Source: Candidatus Goldiibacteriota bacterium (GTDB lineage Bacteria > Oederibacteriota > PGYV01). From it: a stretch of DNA of 45,042 bases. The notes beneath the pieces are model-generated. The model saw only the letters and a list, made by a program, of their open reading frames with translations. It had not been told where the DNA came from and ran no database searches. The translations under genes and the position numbers were made by a program. Position 1 is the first letter of the stretch, and each line of letters starts with the position of its first letter. Positions 28,381 through 37,085 of the stretch are shown here, in pieces. The DNA lies in the NCBI GenBank assembly GCA_016937715.1, contig JAFGWA010000059.1, positions 1 to 45,042 of the forward strand. The letters run 5' to 3'.

Positions 28381-28647
28381 AGGGCAATAAACAATTCAAA
28401 TCAAATATAACTACCGAATGCTGCCACCGTCTGATCTTTTTATGATTATGCTTATGCTTAATTGCCTATAGCTTACACCGCTGTTCTTCCGGGCTGTCGA
28501 GCCGCGATTTTCCCACGCTGACATTTGCCGTGCGCGCAATGTGTTGCGCGGAAACACACCTTAAATTCCCTTTAAAATATGAATAAAAACCGCGGCACGG
28601 CAATTGCTATTACACAGTTGTTACAAATACGAAAAGGAGAAAACAAA

Positions 28648-29400
28648 ATGAAAAAAACAAAACTGGCAATGATTACGGCGGCGGTAATTATCCTGTGCGG
28701 GTGCGCGTCCACAACCGGGAATAAAATTTACACAATTAATTCCAGGGGTACTGCGGAAATACCGGGTTCTGATATCAGCTCCGCGCAGAACAAATCGCTG
28801 CAGTACGCAAGGGAAGAAATGATTTATTCAATAGACCGGTTTCTGGATTTTAAGTTTAATTTTGATGAAGAGACAAAAAGAAAAATATCGTCTGAAAGCA
28901 GGATAGTAAAAGGGTGGAAAAAGGACGGCTGGTACATTACGGAACTTACGTATACGCTTGATCTTTTTAATTTTCTGGCTGATAACGCGGGTTTCAGAAG
29001 CTTTAATACATGGGAATTGATGGGAATGTCAAAATACTATGACCACTATATGACAGGAAATAAGCCTATAGGCGTCTGGGTTCAGGAAAAACTTGCGCAG
29101 GAAATTACCAATGACCCTGTCAATCAGGCGGTTCTTTGCATGATACCGGCTTACAGCGGGAATTTCGCTATAGGAAAAAACCTTGCAGGCGGATTTTTTG
29201 CCCTGGCTAAAACAGCGGCGCTTTTAACCGCCATATTTCACCCGGATAAAGGCGCGAAAATCGGCGCTTACGCCGGACTGGGGGTGATAACCGCGTTGGA
29301 TTTTTATTCTGTAATTTTTGAAACATCAGAGTCTATAAAAAAACTTGAAGTGCTGAAAAACGCGCTTTCAGGGCAAAAACAAAATGAAAAAGGAGAATAA
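28648..29400 (+). CDS. lipoprotein of unknown function
   Basis: ATG 28648 has a strong SD (AAAAGGAG) and begins a lipoprotein signal with lipobox LCGCA (Cys about residue 19). An in-frame start 69 bases upstream would precede the SD. The 250 residues show a charged N-terminal half (LQYAREEMIYSIDRFL, RIVKGWKKDGWYITE) and a C-terminal half with two hydrophobic segments (about 170-190 and 200-225) typical of membrane-associated domains. No family is recognised. It is followed after 2 bases by another exported protein, so the two probably act together in the envelope. Confidence 0.6.
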   Translation: MKKTKLAMITAAVIILCGCASTTGNKIYTINSRGTAEIPGSDISSAQNKSLQYAREEMIYSIDRFLDFKFNFDEETKRKISSESRIVKGWKKDGWYITELTYTLDLFNFLADNAGFRSFNTWELMGMSKYYDHYMTGNKPIGVWVQEKLAQEITNDPVNQAVLCMIPAYSGNFAIGKNLAGGFFALAKTAALLTAIFHPDKGAKIGAYAGLGVITALDFYSVIFETSESIKKLEVLKNALSGQKQNEKGE

Positions 29401-29402
29401 AA

Positions 29403-29999
29403 ATGAAAATTAAAATTCAGGCAAAAAAGTTATTAATGACAGTTGTTGCGGCGGGAGCTTTATACGGCACGGTTTTAGCGCAGGGATATTTGGATACAAA
29501 TGAAAATGTACCGTCCTGGGAAAGGGATGTATACGCGGAAAAAGAAAATAAGACGGGTTTTTGGATATTTGGAGCCGGAGGCGCGGTGAACAGCCTTCCT
29601 TTAGCTTCGTCAAAATTCACACTGCCCCTTGTTTATCTTGCGTACGAAGGCGTGAATAAGAAATCGCTGGGAAACTTTGACACAAGCTGGTCTTTTGGGC
29701 TGTATGATTTTATGCCGGAAGCTGAATTTGCGATAATAATGCCTGTAAAACCGCTTGATTTCCGTTTAAGCGTGGGCGCTTACTATGACATAATCATCGG
29801 CGGGCACGCGGGGGTGCTTGTAAAAGCGGGGGCCATACTTAACAAGACTTATTCTTTTGACCTTATGGTAATCCCTATAGGCACGCAGCCTTCCGTGTCA
29901 TATTCCGAATCCCTGTCGCAGCAGAAAATTGTTCCAAATGACGGCGAACATGGGCTTGAATTTCCGGTATTCGGGGTTCTGGCTTCAATAAGGTTCTAA
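29403..29999 (+). CDS. exported protein, possible outer-membrane barrel
   Basis: 198 residues with a Sec signal (about residues 9-26, cleavage after VLA). The mature part is rich in aromatic, glycine-containing amphipathic strands (GFWIFGAGG, WSFGLYDFM, DFRLSVGAYYDIIIGG) and ends in Phe (VLASIRF), consistent with a small 8-strand outer-membrane barrel. It is co-transcribed with the lipoprotein gene (2-base gap, SD AAAAGGAG). A strong terminator follows. The barrel call is inference. Confidence 0.55.
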   Translation: MKIKIQAKKLLMTVVAAGALYGTVLAQGYLDTNENVPSWERDVYAEKENKTGFWIFGAGGAVNSLPLASSKFTLPLVYLAYEGVNKKSLGNFDTSWSFGLYDFMPEAEFAIIMPVKPLDFRLSVGAYYDIIIGGHAGVLVKAGAILNKTYSFDLMVIPIGTQPSVSYSESLSQQKIVPNDGEHGLEFPVFGVLASIRF

Positions 30000-30081: not shown

Positions 30082-32049
30082 ATGGACATGAACACAATGG
30101 TGGAATCATATAACAGCACAATTTTTTATCTTATCGCGGCAACAGGCGCTGTAAACGCGGTCCTTGGTATCCTGGCTTTGACCAAAGGCAAAAACAGGCT
30201 TAATATTTCATTTGCCATTCTAAGTATACTGCTTGCGGCGTGGAATGCCCTTGTAATTTTATGGCAGGGCCCCGGCGGGATACAATATCTTGAAAAAATT
30301 AACGCGGTTGTGGTTGCTTTCATACCGGCTGCCGGAATTTTTCTGATACTTACTTTTTTCAAAATCACAAAAGGGCCCGGCGTTTCCCTGCTGAAAGTCT
30401 CGCTGATTTTTTCCGCGCTGCTGTCGCTGTACAGTATATCCACGTTTTTTTCGCCGGCGCTTGATTCTTTTTATAATACGCCGCCGTTTAAAGTGTGGGT
30501 GCTTATGCACATTTTTGTCTTCAGTATTGCGGGGTTTATGGTGCTTCTGTTTAAATACCGCAGAGTGCAGTATAAGCAGGAAAAGATAAAGATAAAATAC
30601 GTTATATTCGCGTTTGTCGTGCTTTTTACGGGAGCTCTTTTTGAACTTACCGGCGCTATCGGGATTCACAGGTTTAACCATATGGCGAATATAGCAAATG
30701 CCATATATTGCCTGATTCTGTTTGGCGCTATTTTCAGGCACAGGCTGTTTGATGCCGGAGTGGTGCTGAAAAATCTTATTATTTATTCCATAGCCGCCGG
30801 CGCTGCAACAGTTTTTTATGCCATAGCCGCTTACTTTTACGGCAAAGACAGGTTCTTTGGAGTGATGGCGCTTTTTATCCTCAGTTTTGCCGTTTTTTAC
30901 TATGCAAGGTTTCTTCACGGGGTGATAAAACTTTTTGTTGATTCCGTAAGCGGCGCGTCCGGCACCGAACTGGCCGCGCGGGAGCTTAAAAAACTGAAGG
31001 TTTCAGAGATAAACGATGAAGAAAAAATAAAAGCTATAATAGCGCTGCTGTCTGAAACAATGGAAATGGATGTTATTGTCTATATAAAAGAAGGTAATTA
31101 TTATGTGCCGTCATGGAGCATAGGGCCGGATGCGGGAGTGACCGTGGAGTACAGCGGTAAATTAAGCGGCATAACGCTTAAGTATGAAACCATAGCGGAA
31201 GACGGCAGCCTTAAAATTTTTGGAGCGGATATAACGGCGCCGCTTATATACGCGGGAGATGAAGAAGGGGCCATAACCGCAAAAAAACAGACAGCTGATA
31301 TTTCTTTTATGGAAAATGAAATATCCCTGTTCGCGGACGGCGCGGCAGAAATATCCGCCTGCCTTAATTCTTATCTTTTAAGGCGCACGCTTGACGCGGA
31401 AGAAAACATGAAACGCATAGGGCTTATGGCAAGGCAGATGGCGCATGAGATAAAAAATCCGCTGACCGCGCTTTGGGGCGCTGCGCAGCTGCTTGACCCG
31501 AAAAACGAAACTGACGCGGAAAACATTTCCATAATCAGGGATGAAATTAACCGGTTAAGGGGGATACTTGAATCATGGAAAGATTTTTCAGATAATATAA
31601 GAGTGGAAAAGTTTTCCGGTGATGTGATAGCTCTTGTGGAAGACAGCGTTAAGATGGCGCGCCTTACAGGCAAAAACGCTGAGTTCAGTTTTAAAAAGAC
31701 CGCGGCTTCTCTTATGGCAAATTTTGATAAAGACAGGATGAAACAGGTTGTTTTAAATATACTGTTAAACGCGGCTGATGCCTGTGAAAAAAGCCGCCTG
31801 CCTTTGGTGAAAGTTATGGTTATTCAAAAAGAGAAAACATTTGAGATAAAAGTAAAGGATAATGGTACGGGTATTAATCCCGAAATAATGAGAAAGTTAA
31901 AACAGCCGCTTTTTACGACAAAAGCAAAGGGAACGGGGCTTGGGCTCTCTATTTCTGATAAAATTGTGACGGCTCATAATGGGACGCTTATTATTGAAAG
32001 TGATGGAAACACTTATACAGAGGTAAAGATAGAAATTCCTTATAATTAA
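30082..32049 (+). CDS. membrane sensor histidine kinase (paralogue 1)
   Basis: 655 residues. About nine hydrophobic helices fill residues 10-285, like histidine-kinase 7TM-type sensory regions. A GAF-like domain follows (about 310-430). In the catalytic core the phosphoacceptor His455 is in MAHEIKNPLTALWG, with an N-box VLNILLNAADAC, G1 VKDNGTGI and G2 GTGLGLS. The H-box MAHEIKNPL is NtrB-like. It lacks a receiver domain. With the second kinase at 32322 it likely feeds the NtrC-type regulator at 34302. The start is ATG 30082 with GGGGTGAT SD. Confidence 0.88.
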   Translation: MDMNTMVESYNSTIFYLIAATGAVNAVLGILALTKGKNRLNISFAILSILLAAWNALVILWQGPGGIQYLEKINAVVVAFIPAAGIFLILTFFKITKGPGVSLLKVSLIFSALLSLYSISTFFSPALDSFYNTPPFKVWVLMHIFVFSIAGFMVLLFKYRRVQYKQEKIKIKYVIFAFVVLFTGALFELTGAIGIHRFNHMANIANAIYCLILFGAIFRHRLFDAGVVLKNLIIYSIAAGAATVFYAIAAYFYGKDRFFGVMALFILSFAVFYYARFLHGVIKLFVDSVSGASGTELAARELKKLKVSEINDEEKIKAIIALLSETMEMDVIVYIKEGNYYVPSWSIGPDAGVTVEYSGKLSGITLKYETIAEDGSLKIFGADITAPLIYAGDEEGAITAKKQTADISFMENEISLFADGAAEISACLNSYLLRRTLDAEENMKRIGLMARQMAHEIKNPLTALWGAAQLLDPKNETDAENISIIRDEINRLRGILESWKDFSDNIRVEKFSGDVIALVEDSVKMARLTGKNAEFSFKKTAASLMANFDKDRMKQVVLNILLNAADACEKSRLPLVKVMVIQKEKTFEIKVKDNGTGINPEIMRKLKQPLFTTKAKGTGLGLSISDKIVTAHNGTLIIESDGNTYTEVKIEIPYN

Positions 32050-32149
32050 AGTAACATCCTGCTGCGCAAAAAAAATCCAAAAGTGTGCAATGCGCATAAA
32101 ATTGCGCAACGGCTATCCTGGAAAACCTAATAAAATAAAGGGTAATTTT

Positions 32150-32165
32150 TGGTATGTTTTATGCT
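32150..32165 (+). promoter_or_regulatory. sigma54 -24/-12 promoter
   Basis: TGGTATG-TTTT-ATGCT matches TGGCACG-N4-TTGCW at nine of twelve fixed positions, including the essential GG (32151-32152) and GC (32163-32164) with correct spacing. It lies 100 bp after the first kinase stop and about 65 bp before the terminator at 32228. Transcription would start near 32176. Confidence 0.6.
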
Positions 32166-32175
32166 TAGTAATAGC

Positions 32176-32267
32176 CGGAGTGAGGCGATACAGAAAATAA
32201 AGAAACACAGTTCAGGGTCCGAGGGGTGTAGCAGACCGGTAGAAATGCCGGCCTGCTGCTTTTTTTT
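32176..32267 (+). ncRNA. candidate sigma54-controlled small RNA (~92 nt)
   Basis: The segment runs from the predicted start of the sigma54 promoter to the T8 of a strong terminator. It has no ORF with an SD. The 5' half is G/A-rich and includes an unpaired A-rich stretch (ACAGAAAATAAAGAAACACA). The 3' half is the terminator hairpin. Adjacent kinases and an NtrC-type activator suggest regulation by them. Alternatives: leader/attenuator of the second kinase, or just the 3' end of the first kinase mRNA with a chance promoter match. Confidence 0.45.
32228..32267 (+). terminator. strong rho-independent terminator between the kinases
   Basis: GTAGCAG-A-CCGG pairs with CCGG-C-CTGCTGC (one A/C mismatch, one G-T pair) with an 8-nt loop, followed directly by TTTTTTTT (32260-32267). 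Confidence 0.8.
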
Positions 32268-32272
32268 ATGGA

Positions 32273-32302
32273 GTGACATTGCCTTTTATTATCCTTGATA
32301 AT
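32273..32302 (+). promoter_or_regulatory. sigma70-type promoter of the second kinase gene
   Basis: GTGACA (32273-32278), an 18-bp spacer and GATAAT (32297-32302), just after the terminator and 19 bases before the TTG at 32322. If real, the second kinase is transcribed independently of the sigma54 unit. Confidence 0.4.
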
Positions 32303-32321
32303 TACTTAAAGCGGTGATAAA

Positions 32322-34274
32322 TTGTTATTTATAATGATTTATAATATTATTGCGATAGCCGCGGCTGTTAACGCCATTCTGGCAATAATAGCCCTTATAA
32401 AAGGAATTAACCCGCTAAGCGTTTCTTTTGCGCTTTTGAATTTATTGCTTTCCGGATGGGCAGGCTGCGTGCTTTTCTGGCAGCATTACGGCGTTGAAGA
32501 ATTTGAAATAATAAACAGGATAGTGACGTCCTTTATTCCGGCAGCGGGTATGTTTTTTACCTGCGCGCTTTACCGTCTTGAAAACAGAAAAACAATTCAG
32601 TACACATCCATTGTCGCGCTGCCCGCGTTTGTCCTTGCAGGGGCGGCTTTGATGGTTTTTTTCAATCCGGTATTTGAAGAATTTGAAAAATCCATGCTGT
32701 ATCAGACCGGCATCATGGTGTATATTTTTGCGGCGCTTATTTTCGTGTTTTACGTGCTTATCAGCAATTACCGGCTTGTTAAATTCCGGCAGGAGCGGAT
32801 AAAAATAGGCATTGTTATTTCCGCTTTCCTTGTGCTTTTTGCCGGCGGTATGCTTGATCTGACAGGCGGCCTTGGCCTTCATAAAATACAGCACGCCGGA
32901 ATAGTATCCAATATGGTTTACGGGTTAATGATATTTTTTGCCATTTTTAAATTAAGGCTTCTGGATACGGGAATTATAATAAGAAATTTCGCGGCTTCCG
33001 TCATTGTGGCGCTTATTGTCTCTTTTTTATTTCTTGCCGCGGAGCATATGCTTAACAGCGAGTGGAAGGCAATGGCTTCGGTTTTTGTCATCCTGTCTTT
33101 CGGCGCTGTGTTTTTTTCGGCGCGCACCAGAAACTCTTTTTCGGATTTTTTTGAACAGGCCTCCGGAACCCCTCCTTCCGGAATTGTGGTAAAACACATT
33201 GAAGCCGTAAAAACCATGCAGGCGGATGAGGAAGAAAAACTGTTTTACATACAGGGCGTGCTTGAAAAGTATCTTGAAACGGAAACAGTTTCCTATGTAA
33301 AAGAAGGCGAGTATTTCACGATACTTCAGCCGGAAAAAGCAGGCAGATTTCCTCTTGTTCTGAACGCGATGGCTGTCCCTGACAGGGTGGCTGTAAGATA
33401 TGGTTTATCGGACGAAACCGAGAAAAACTTCCTGAATATTTTAAACGCTGATATTGCATCGCCCCTTAAGCACGGGGGGGAAGTTACGGGTATTATTACG
33501 GGCAAAAAACAGACCGCTGACATTTCTTTTACGCAGGATGAATGTGAAGCGTTTAATATGGCGGCTATGGAAACTTCCGTTCTTTTAAACGCGATGCGCC
33601 TTAAGAAAAAAATTCTGGAAGAAGAGAACATGAAGCGCATAGGGCTTCTGGCAAAACAGATGGCTCATGAAATTAGAAATCCCCTTGCGGCGCTGTGGGG
33701 CGCCGTGCAGCTTATTATTCCTGACAGAAAAGACGACCGTGAAAATGTGGAAATAGTAAGAAAAGAAGTAAGGCGGCTTACGGGAATTCTGGACACGTGG
33801 AAAGACTTTTCGGGAGAGGTCAGGCTTGACCTTAAACAGACGGACTTATGCGCGCTGGCGGATGAATGCGTAAAACTTTCCAAACTGCAGCCGCAGGCCG
33901 CGGCAGTTGATTTTCAGCTTGCCTGCACATACCGCCCTGTAAACGTCATGGCTGATACTGACAAGTTAAAACAGGTTTTATTAAACCTGATATTAAATTC
34001 TGTTGAAGCAATGGAAGGCAGGCAGAATCCGGTGATAAAGATAGAGACGGTAAAAAAGAAAGAGTCGGTGGAAATAAAAGTAAGGGACAACGGGTGCGGC
34101 ATAAATAAGGCGCTTATAGAAAAAGTGAAAGAACCGCTTTATACAAGCAAGTCTAAAGGCTCCGGGCTTGGGCTGCCTGTATCAGAAAAACTGGTTAAGG
34201 CGCACGGCGGGATTTTAATTATAGACAGCGACGGGGAGACTTTTACGGAAGTTACTGTTTCGCTTCCGTCATAA
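32322..34274 (+). CDS. membrane sensor histidine kinase (paralogue 2)
   Basis: 650 residues with the same plan as the kinase at 30082: about nine N-terminal helices, a GAF-like middle, then His449 in MAHEIRNPLAALWG, N-box VLLNLILNSVEAM, G1 VRDNGCGI and G2 GSGLGLP. The two are clear paralogues across the whole length (shared GKKQTADISF before the H-box), implying tandem duplication. The TTG start fits SD GGTGATAA, and ATG 32334 is an alternative. The stop is 27 bases before the response regulator. Confidence 0.87.
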   Translation: MLFIMIYNIIAIAAAVNAILAIIALIKGINPLSVSFALLNLLLSGWAGCVLFWQHYGVEEFEIINRIVTSFIPAAGMFFTCALYRLENRKTIQYTSIVALPAFVLAGAALMVFFNPVFEEFEKSMLYQTGIMVYIFAALIFVFYVLISNYRLVKFRQERIKIGIVISAFLVLFAGGMLDLTGGLGLHKIQHAGIVSNMVYGLMIFFAIFKLRLLDTGIIIRNFAASVIVALIVSFLFLAAEHMLNSEWKAMASVFVILSFGAVFFSARTRNSFSDFFEQASGTPPSGIVVKHIEAVKTMQADEEEKLFYIQGVLEKYLETETVSYVKEGEYFTILQPEKAGRFPLVLNAMAVPDRVAVRYGLSDETEKNFLNILNADIASPLKHGGEVTGIITGKKQTADISFTQDECEAFNMAAMETSVLLNAMRLKKKILEEENMKRIGLLAKQMAHEIRNPLAALWGAVQLIIPDRKDDRENVEIVRKEVRRLTGILDTWKDFSGEVRLDLKQTDLCALADECVKLSKLQPQAAAVDFQLACTYRPVNVMADTDKLKQVLLNLILNSVEAMEGRQNPVIKIETVKKKESVEIKVRDNGCGINKALIEKVKEPLYTSKSKGSGLGLPVSEKLVKAHGGILIIDSDGETFTEVTVSLPS

Positions 34275-34301: not shown

Positions 34302-35636
34302 ATGGCAAAACTGCTGATTGTGGATGATGAGGACAATATAAGAAAGGTCTTAAAACAGCTTCTGGCAAGAAACGGGTTTACTGATATCATAGAAGCCGCT
34401 GACGGAGTGGAAGCGCTTGAAAAAATAAATGACAATGAAATTGACCTTGTTATCAGCGATATAAATATGCCGAAAATGGACGGTATAACCCTTTTTGAAA
34501 AGGCAAAAAAACTGGGGCCTGTTTTTATAATACTTACAGCTTTTGGGTCAATAGAGACCGCTGTCAATATGGTTAAAAGCGGGGTATATGACTTTATATC
34601 AAAACCATTTGACGAATCCGAACTTGTGAATACTGTAAAAAAGGCTGTATCGGAAAGATGCAGTTCCAATATGGAAATACAGTATTCCGGCGGAATAGAT
34701 GAAATATTTTTTCAGTCCCGCCACCCGGAAATTGAAAAAATTAACAGTGTAATTGACCGCGTGGCTACAACAGGGGGGCCTGTTTTTATAACCGGGGAGA
34801 CAGGAACCGGGAAAGGGCTTTTGGCCGGAATAATACACGAAAAAAGCGGAAGGCAGGGAGCGTTTATAAAGGTTAACTGCGCGGCGATTCCGGAAACCCT
34901 TATGGAATCGGAGCTGTTTGGATACAGAAAAGGCGCTTTTACCGGCGCTGCAATGGACAAACCCGGTAAATTTGAACTTGCCGCGGGCGGCACCATTTTT
35001 CTTGATGAAATAGGCGAACTTCCAAATGAACTGCAGGCAAAACTGCTTGCCGCTTTACAGGATAAAGAAATAAACAGGCTGGGCGACACAAAGCCCGTGA
35101 AAATTGACGCCCGTGTCATAGCCGCCACTAATATTAATATTAAAGAGGCGATTGAAAAAAAGACGTTCAGGGAAGATTTGTATTACAGGCTTAATGTGGT
35201 GGAATTTGCCGTGCCTCCTTTAAGGGAACGCGGGGAGGATGCGGGGCTGTTTATAAATTTCTTTAATAAAAAATATTCGGACGAGTACGGAATAGAGCAG
35301 AAGAAGTTTTCCGAAGACGCTGTTGAATACATATCTGAATGCAAATTCGCGGGAAATATCAGGGAGCTTGAAAATGTGATACAGAAGCTTCTTATAATGG
35401 AAAAAGACGCGGTGGTTACAAAAGAAGTTGCCGCAAGATATTTAAGCAAGGCCGAATGCAAAACGGACAACAGCCTTATGTTCAGGGCGGGCAAGGATAA
35501 AAAGGTGGAAGCGGAAGTGTCGCTTATAAGGCAGGCGCTTGAAAAAACCGAAGGCAACAGGACAAAAGCCGCGGAGATTCTTGGCATAAGCAGAAGGACT
35601 CTTTTGTACAGGATAAAGGAATACGGCATAGCATAA
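34302..35636 (+). CDS. NtrC-family sigma54-dependent response regulator
   Basis: 444 residues: a receiver domain with phosphoacceptor Asp53 (VISDINMP) and acidic pair D8-D9, a AAA+ sigma54-activation domain with Walker A GETGTGKG (about residue 165), the sigma54-contact loop GAFTGA (residues 211-216) and Walker B GGTIFLDE, then a C-terminal Fis-type helix-turn-helix (RTKAAEILGISRRTLLYRI). All activation motifs are intact. It follows the second kinase with SD GGGAGG. The sigma54 promoter at 32150-32165 is its obvious local target. Upstream-activator sites were not identified. Confidence 0.93.
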   Translation: MAKLLIVDDEDNIRKVLKQLLARNGFTDIIEAADGVEALEKINDNEIDLVISDINMPKMDGITLFEKAKKLGPVFIILTAFGSIETAVNMVKSGVYDFISKPFDESELVNTVKKAVSERCSSNMEIQYSGGIDEIFFQSRHPEIEKINSVIDRVATTGGPVFITGETGTGKGLLAGIIHEKSGRQGAFIKVNCAAIPETLMESELFGYRKGAFTGAAMDKPGKFELAAGGTIFLDEIGELPNELQAKLLAALQDKEINRLGDTKPVKIDARVIAATNINIKEAIEKKTFREDLYYRLNVVEFAVPPLRERGEDAGLFINFFNKKYSDEYGIEQKKFSEDAVEYISECKFAGNIRELENVIQKLLIMEKDAVVTKEVAARYLSKAECKTDNSLMFRAGKDKKVEAEVSLIRQALEKTEGNRTKAAEILGISRRTLLYRIKEYGIA

Positions 35637-35693: not shown

Positions 35694-37085
35694 TTGAAAA
35701 AGTTTTTTCTCAGTTTTATTGTTTTTTTACTTTTTTGCGCTGCGGGATATTCCGGGCCGTTAACGCTTAAAAAATCCATTGAACCTTCCGTGGGTTTTAT
35801 AGGGGATACAGTCACCGTATGCCTGGAAATTGAAGCTTCGGCATCTGTTCCCAAAGCGGATATAGTGTGGGTTATAGATATAAGCGCATCCATGGGTTCG
35901 GGGATATCCAATATTAAAAATAATATAAATTATATGACAAGCCAGCTTGCGTCGGAGGGCATTGATTACAGGCAGGGCCTTGTGACGTACAGCGATGTAT
36001 ATATAGGCGAGCCAATTACCAATTATGGTTTTATGCCGTCTGACGCGGACTTTATGTCGGCAATAAACGGAATTTCGCTTCTGTCAGGCGGAGATATCCC
36101 GGAAAGCGGGCTTGAAGGTCTTTTGTCCGCGCAGTCATCCGCATGGAGGGCTGACGCTTCAAAAACAATAATACTTGTAACCGACGCTCAGGTTAAAACA
36201 ATTGATACAGGCAACGGGGTTTATTCTTTGACTTATACAGCCCAATCATTGACTGATGACGGTATAACGGTTGACGCGATATGCGTGGATATGGGAAGCT
36301 ACGCGCCATATTCCAATCCAAAAGACCTGCCGTCACTTACCGGAGGCATATGGCTGGATTATTGGACGCCTTCGTCTGATTGGGATGCGTTTCTGGTTGC
36401 GCTTGGAACAGCAATAAGCACTTATTCAAATGTTGTTATAAGGGATCCGCTGCCGCCGGAATTAATGCCTGTTGCACCTTATGGCGGCGGCAGTTATACA
36501 GGCGGCCAGGTAATCTGGACTTTCAGCAGTGTGGGAAAAGGCCAGCCGTTTACGGTATGTTTTCCTTCTGTAATAACAAGCGCTTACGCGGGATTTATAA
36601 GCAATACGGCGTATATTTCCGCTGATAACGTAACAGAGACCGCGTCTGATACAGAGTATGTCTTTTATCCCACAAAAACCGCCACTACAACCGCTACACC
36701 GACAGTGACCGCAACAGGCACCATTACAGTTTCACCTACAATCACTCTGACGGCGACAATTACACCCACTGCAACGCCCACACCTCCCGTGCTTATGCTT
36801 ATGGGCAAGGGTACGTTTCCCAACCCTTTTATAAAAGAGGCGCAGATAGTTTACTATCTGACCGCGGAAGCTGATGTAACGGTGAAAGTGTACACAGTAT
36901 CCGGGGAAGTTGTTTTTGAATCACAGCCTGTTAAAGGGCTGCGGGGTGTAAACAGTTTTTTATGGGATGGAAGGAATAAAAACCGAAAGCCTGTGGCGTC
37001 CGGGCTGTATATATACCGTGTACAGGCGGTGTCAGGCAGGGATGAAAAAGTGCATATCTTCGGTAAGGCGGCCTGCCTTAGATAA
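35694..37085 (+). CDS. secreted VWA-domain protein with FlgD-like C-terminal domain
   Basis: 463 residues from TTG 35694 (SD GGGAGGG). A Sec signal (about 2-20) precedes a von Willebrand A domain. MIDAS DISASMGSG is at about residues 62-70, with the second MIDAS Thr in GLVTYSD. A Thr/Pro-rich linker (about 330-362, T-x-T repeats) leads to a C-terminal FlgD-Ig-like domain (FPNPF...VKVYTVSGEVV...FLWDGRNKNRKPVASGLYIY). It is probably secreted and binds metal-dependently to a surface or matrix. The tail resembles the partial gene at 2-166, so both probably share an export or anchoring route. Confidence 0.8.
   Translation: MKKFFLSFIVFLLFCAAGYSGPLTLKKSIEPSVGFIGDTVTVCLEIEASASVPKADIVWVIDISASMGSGISNIKNNINYMTSQLASEGIDYRQGLVTYSDVYIGEPITNYGFMPSDADFMSAINGISLLSGGDIPESGLEGLLSAQSSAWRADASKTIILVTDAQVKTIDTGNGVYSLTYTAQSLTDDGITVDAICVDMGSYAPYSNPKDLPSLTGGIWLDYWTPSSDWDAFLVALGTAISTYSNVVIRDPLPPELMPVAPYGGGSYTGGQVIWTFSSVGKGQPFTVCFPSVITSAYAGFISNTAYISADNVTETASDTEYVFYPTKTATTTATPTVTATGTITVSPTITLTATITPTATPTPPVLMLMGKGTFPNPFIKEAQIVYYLTAEADVTVKVYTVSGEVVFESQPVKGLRGVNSFLWDGRNKNRKPVASGLYIYRVQAVSGRDEKVHIFGKAACLR

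Follow-up and report, generated by a model that had tools for sequence, protein, structure and literature searches.

A candidate sigma54-dependent small RNA gene tied to a predicted lipoprotein regulon in an uncultured bacterium

Two membrane histidine kinase genes and the gene for an NtrC-type regulator lie in tandem in the window (the whole 45,042-nt stretch of DNA analyzed here), and the interval between the two kinases raises the question of whether it holds a small RNA gene of its own, read by RpoN polymerase under the control of the neighboring regulator, or simply the leader or the tail of a kinase mRNA. The window belongs to a 2.59-Mb assembly (124 contigs, 96% complete) of an uncultured bacterium; the comparison set within the genus consists of this genome and two relatives, G001 and G002, and all three carry the region. 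The features needed for the argument are as follows.

28534-28549, no strand assigned: same palindrome as at 32092-32107, before the lipoprotein operon, 58 to 59 nt ahead of its -24 box in three genomes
28593-28608, plus strand: predicted sigma54 promoter of the lipoprotein operon, CGGCACGGCAATTGCT, near-consensus and joint best score in the window
28648-29400, plus strand: lipoprotein (lipobox ..VIILCGCAS), first gene of the operon; Shine-Dalgarno (SD) sequence AAAGGAG and ATG conserved
29403-29999, plus strand: small predicted outer-membrane-type protein, second gene of the operon; signal-like N terminus, read from the sequence
30082-32049, plus strand: membrane histidine kinase 1 (HisKA and HATPase_c)
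32063-32068 and 32084-32089: further half-sites, TGCGCA and TGTGCA
32092-32107, no strand assigned: palindrome GCGCA-N6-TGCGC, proposed upstream activating site (UAS), kept in three genomes
32150-32165, plus strand: predicted sigma54 promoter of the RNA, TGGTATGTTTTATGCT, with GG-N10-GC, conserved in the relatives
32175-32267, plus strand: predicted noncoding RNA of ca. 92 nt, conserved from boundary to boundary
32175-32188, plus strand: invariant 5' block of the RNA, 14 nt from the predicted +1 (three-way alignment)
32189-32210, plus strand: variable loop (three-way alignment)
32211-32235, plus strand: second conserved block, 25 nt (three-way alignment)
32228-32267, plus strand: intrinsic terminator, conserved, with hairpin at 32228-32259 and T8 at 32260-32267
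32295-32323, plus strand: sigma70-like promoter of kinase 2, TTGATA-N17-TAAATT, with TG before the -10 (extended -10)
32334-34274, plus strand: membrane histidine kinase 2 (HisKA and HATPase_c), from the ATG at 32334 to the stop at 34274
34302-35636, plus strand: NtrC-type response regulator, proposed activator (Response_reg, Sigma54_activat with GAFTGA, and Fis-type HTH_8)

The two kinases are paralogues (38% identical). Directly after the regulator, at 35694-37085, lies a gene for a VWA-domain protein with a Thr-rich repeat and a C-terminal T9SS-type sorting or FlgD-like domain.

The -24/-12 element that first drew attention to this interval is present at 32150-32165, and its GG-N10-GC core is retained in 3/3 genomes of the genus (the relatives have CGGCATGTTTTATGCT and CGGCACAATATATGCT), while other positions of the box vary. 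It would place the transcription start at about 32174 to 32177. A sigma54 scan of the 45 kb returned 5 sites scoring at least 13, against 5.8 in shuffled sequence; the match is thus no better than chance and by itself carries little weight. What lends the promoter significance is its conservation in three genomes together with an activator palindrome at a fixed distance. rpoN, whose presence the original prediction had left to be checked, is full-length in the same genome, with the RpoN AID, CBD, and DBD domains all found, and it adjoins a ribosome-hibernation-factor-like gene and a PTS EIIA-like gene (both named from sequence only). The window's genome thus encodes both an intact RpoN and a group I activator with GAFTGA.

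The palindrome, which had been overlooked in the original prediction, has the form GYGCA-N6-TGCRC and starts 58 nt before the -24 box of the RNA promoter in 3/3 genomes (GTGCA-N6-TGCGC in G001 and GCGCA-N6-TGCAC in G002). An upstream palindrome that keeps its helical phase is common to the proposed regulon members. The spacing is 58 to 59 nt in the lipoA promoters of three genomes, 58 nt in both G001 and G002 before the lipoprotein pair lipoC, and 66 to 68 nt before the lipoprotein gene lipoB (contig C62), i.e., about one helical turn more. Genome-wide, the window's assembly has 13 exact palindromes; 3 of these are followed, on the correct strand, by a -24/-12 element scoring at least 12, and they belong to the RNA and two lipoprotein units, while no such element lies downstream of the remaining 10. 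We also considered GGCGCA-N6-TGCGCC repeats as regulon members and rejected them, as they come without sigma54 sites and look like an interspersed palindrome. This palindrome, GAGGCGCAATATATTGCGCCTC, occurs in about nine places in G000, on contigs C8, C10, C86, C89, C105, C114, and C116 (L223, L150, and L227 to L233), and resembles a small repeat element.

The lipoprotein operon upstream of kinase 1 provides the second sigma54 promoter of the cluster; its counterparts in the relatives are CGGCACGCTTGTTGCT and TGGCACGCTTGTTGCT, and its first gene starts at 28648, not at 28579. Because the palindrome recurs there at the same spacing, the RNA appears to be tied to a regulon. In G011, which belongs to a different family of the order, a GTGCA-N6-TGCAC site sits 56 nt ahead of a TGGCACG box (the -12 part is imperfect); behind this box come lipoprotein genes and the genes for the outer-membrane-type protein, a single kinase, and the regulator. 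There the lipoprotein homologue (34% identical) adjoins the corresponding kinase and regulator, and the outer-membrane-type protein (56% identical), for which no Pfam family was found, keeps the same gene order. Since the G011 site precedes a set of genes that includes the regulator, the neighboring regulator is the natural candidate for binding the palindrome and, judging from proximity, is probably the activator of the RNA. Other small lipoproteins of the proposed regulon include that at L128:1627-2028, whose resemblance to TraT is weak and below threshold (E of 0.006), and that at L143:948-1472, the first of a pair in L143 and L145, for which no homologue was detected in the window's own assembly.

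The predicted transcribed part of the unit is sharply delimited by conservation. Between the window and G002, the first 14 nt of the RNA are 100% identical, the second block 88%, and the hairpin 83%, against 58% for the spacer between UAS and promoter and 25 to 26% for the two short flanks, 12 nt behind the kinase 1 stop and 19 nt behind the terminator; the variable loop accommodates an insertion of ca. 11 to 12 nt among the relatives. Because the RNA blocks are conserved while the flanks drift, we take the conserved unit to run from the predicted +1 to the T-run, and its boundaries are as expected for an independent short transcript. This agrees with the original prediction, which had proposed an RNA of ca. 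92 nt and had named conservation of the -24/-12, RNA body, and terminator amid drifting flanks as support. The hairpin and T8 that it described are likewise present, although the stem has 13 pairs (7 plus 6 flanking one mismatch) and not 11. All three genomes have a strong terminator here, whose cap, GGYAGAAAURCC, is a frequent terminator form in the lineage. The RNA folds at -26.5 kcal/mol (z of -1.7); among the three genomes of this one genus, no compensatory pair changes beyond G-U shifts were seen. Taken from sequence, an independent short sigma54 transcript at 32175-32267 is highly likely.

We consider it quite probable, on the whole, that this is a stand-alone small RNA gene, activated by the regulator through RpoN as part of an envelope regulon and acting by pairing in trans. 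In such a scheme, one or both neighboring membrane kinases would sense the state of the envelope and phosphorylate the regulator, which, encoded 2 kb downstream, would bind GCGCA-N6-TGCGC and activate RpoN polymerase at the -24/-12 of the RNA. The transcript of ca. 92 nt would stop at the intrinsic terminator, and kinase 2 and the regulator would be transcribed from their own promoter beyond it. That the kinases and regulator control such an RNA, as originally predicted, gains support from the shared (predicted) spacing of UAS and promoter. Presumably, the regulator also drives the upstream lipoprotein and outer-membrane-protein operon and at least one further lipoprotein gene, which is why we place the RNA in a putative envelope-homeostasis regulon.

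How would the RNA act? Its exposed conserved segments, GGAGUGAGGCGA and GAGGGGUGUAGCAG, are candidate seeds through which it may pair without Hfq, and trans action by pairing seems to us somewhat better than an even prospect. No Hfq was detected in the 21 genomes searched (including the window's own and both same-genus genomes), in a search that was positive in 5 of 14 control genomes; Hfq-independent pairing, or sequestration of protein or RNA, must therefore be assumed, and Hfq titration of the CrcZ kind is unlikely. No significant mRNA target was found; when duplex energies at gene starts in the window were compared with shuffles, the best fractions were 0.065 and 0.09 in 11 tests, so that no gene start convincingly outdid the shuffles once the number of tests was taken into account. 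Alternatively, and distinctly less probably, the RNA is a real sigma54 transcript that acts on a protein or as an RNA decoy. GlmY and CrcZ function as decoys, and the SD-like GAGGGGUGU is both conserved and unpaired; against this, no Hfq was detected and no repeated protein-binding motif is visible in the RNA. Two more specific candidates were discarded. A CsrA sponge was rejected, the RNA holding one GGA only, and the 9-mer complements of GAGGGGUGU were set aside as chance matches because they are mostly antisense to the SD sequences of other genes.

Returning to pairing in trans, one potential partner lies upstream of gcvT, where we found an element of ca. 88 nt with a basal stem (GTGTCGCCGCC/GGCGGCGACAC), an invariant ACCCCCTTATATCA, a second hairpin, and CACGCC. 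Genomes of the genus carry two copies ahead of gcvT, and four genomes from elsewhere in the order have a single copy each (E of 1e-12 to 1e-13).

L203, 1259-1347 and 1429-1517, minus strand (tentative): two copies of the element upstream of gcvT; also in L205 and L207
L215, L216, L217, and L218, 1501-1590, minus strand (tentative): single copy of the element

No convincing Rfam match was obtained for the element, which may represent a new family of structured RNA (or DNA). In 3/3 genomes, its first gcvT-proximal copy (L203, L205, and L207) contains TCGCCTCACTCC, a perfect 12-nt complement of GGAGUGAGGCGA in the invariant 5' block of the RNA. By a rough estimate, one match or fewer per such genome would arise by chance, so we treat the complement as a lead; that the 5' block pairs with this copy and opens its basal stem is improbable. 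If both were expressed as RNAs, they would form an Hfq-free RNA-RNA circuit leading from envelope state to one-carbon metabolism.

The original prediction cited CbrAB and CrcZ as a precedent. In Pseudomonas, this NtrC-type system indeed activates a nearby sigma54-dependent small RNA gene (CrcZ/CrcY; PMC8871633), and that part of the analogy fits; however, crcZ is located downstream of cbrAB and its RNA works against Hfq/Crc (PMC8871633), whereas here neither Hfq, nor the CrcZ motif, nor an Rfam match to the CrcZ family was detected. The closer parallel is glmY-qseE-qseG-qseF (GlrK-QseG-GlrR) of the Enterobacteriaceae. The E. coli glmY gene sits just ahead of qseEGF; QseF, bound at three UAS, switches on a sigma54 promoter, and transcription of qseEGF begins at a sigma70 promoter directly behind glmY (PMC6075780). 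Both systems have a sigma54 small RNA (predicted here) with upstream activating sites, next to an operon that encodes its own kinase and an NtrC-family regulator, a separate sigma70 kinase promoter right after the RNA, and a lipoprotein (an outer-membrane one in the GlmY system) with an envelope theme. They differ in the UAS (GYGCA-N6-TGCRC here, TGT-N12-ACA there), in the two paralogous kinases that flank the RNA here, and in the lipoproteins, which are under the same promoter type here but part of the kinase operon in the GlmY system. The RNA has no match to the GlmY/GlmZ family at the Rfam gathering score, and the regulator scores 327.9 bits against the GlrR NCBIfam equivalog, below its cut-off of 763. 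Qrr1 of the Vibrionaceae also combines a group I enhancer-binding protein (LuxO), a sigma54 promoter, two UAS, and a short small RNA (PMC10162802), but the RNA is another one, the kinases here are not its quorum-sensing receptors, and no Hfq was detected here. PrsK-PrsR of PEP-CTERM systems shares the membrane kinase, the NtrC-type regulator, and a similar domain layout; scores against its models (TIGR02916 and TIGR02915) were 68 to 81 of 300 bits and 365 of 503 bits, below both cut-offs. By analogy, then, the RNA may work like GlmY, CrcZ, and Qrr1 while being an RNA of its own, apparently restricted to the genus.

The GlmY system also bears on the view that the -24/-12 serves the kinase 2-regulator operon as an autoregulatory promoter, with the RNA being the attenuator-bearing 5' leader of that operon. 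The -24/-12 does lie immediately ahead of kinase 2 on the same strand, the 5' CCGG of the RNA could pair alternatively with a terminator arm, and in Proteus mirabilis glmY, qseE, qseG, and qseF are co-transcribed (PMC8745638). In E. coli, by contrast, no autoregulation via glmY read-through was observed (PMC6075780), and the terminator here is strong in 3/3 genomes. Moreover, kinase 2 has its own extended -10 promoter, ending 11 nt upstream of the ATG at 32334; the block at 32287-32325 is 97% and 84% identical to the relatives, whereas identity in the preceding 19 nt falls to as low as 26%. The sigma70-like promoter originally proposed after the terminator is therefore both present and conserved, and the leader reading is unlikely.

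Could the hairpin be nothing but the kinase 1 terminator, with the -24/-12 and RNA body coincidental? The interval from 32049 to 32228 contains no other terminator, read-through from kinase 1 would also stop at the hairpin, and the -24/-12 score does not stand out in the window. Nevertheless, the 14 nt at +1 and the 25-nt block that precedes the hairpin far exceed the spacers in conservation, and UAS, -24/-12, and spacing are common to other units, which makes coincidence very improbable. Least probable of all is that the transcript is a small mRNA encoding a tiny peptide, since GAGGGG, despite resembling the SD sequences of other genes here, has no start codon at a usable distance, the GTG-initiated frames of 6 and 17 codons in the relatives lack an SD sequence, and the hairpin ATG is lost in G002. 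A small ORF within the RNA was likewise discarded from the alignment, its short frames differing in length between relatives, and the earlier observation that no SD-led ORF follows the promoter holds.

To return to the stand-alone RNA, a covariance model built from it matches the three genus genomes alone (E of 1e-19 to 1e-25); matches outside the genus in a phylum search were ordinary terminators with the same GGYAGAAAURCC cap. Rfam searches of the whole window, with a permissive run on the intergenic region, gave no convincing match, and sub-threshold hits to eeev_FSE, RT-17, and CsrC were dismissed as chance. At the orthologous loci of G011 and G012, the regulator is accompanied by a single kinase, and the RNA is absent. 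Given these single-kinase loci and the genus-only covariance matches, the RNA and the second kinase seem to be additions in this genus.

The architecture itself is already known, here probably in a new lineage and with an apparently genus-restricted RNA. Our findings suggest that a GlmY-type design also exists in an uncultured lineage where the RNA is unrelated and no Hfq is detectable, and they give a regulator of this lineage a defined predicted binding site and a small predicted lipoprotein regulon.
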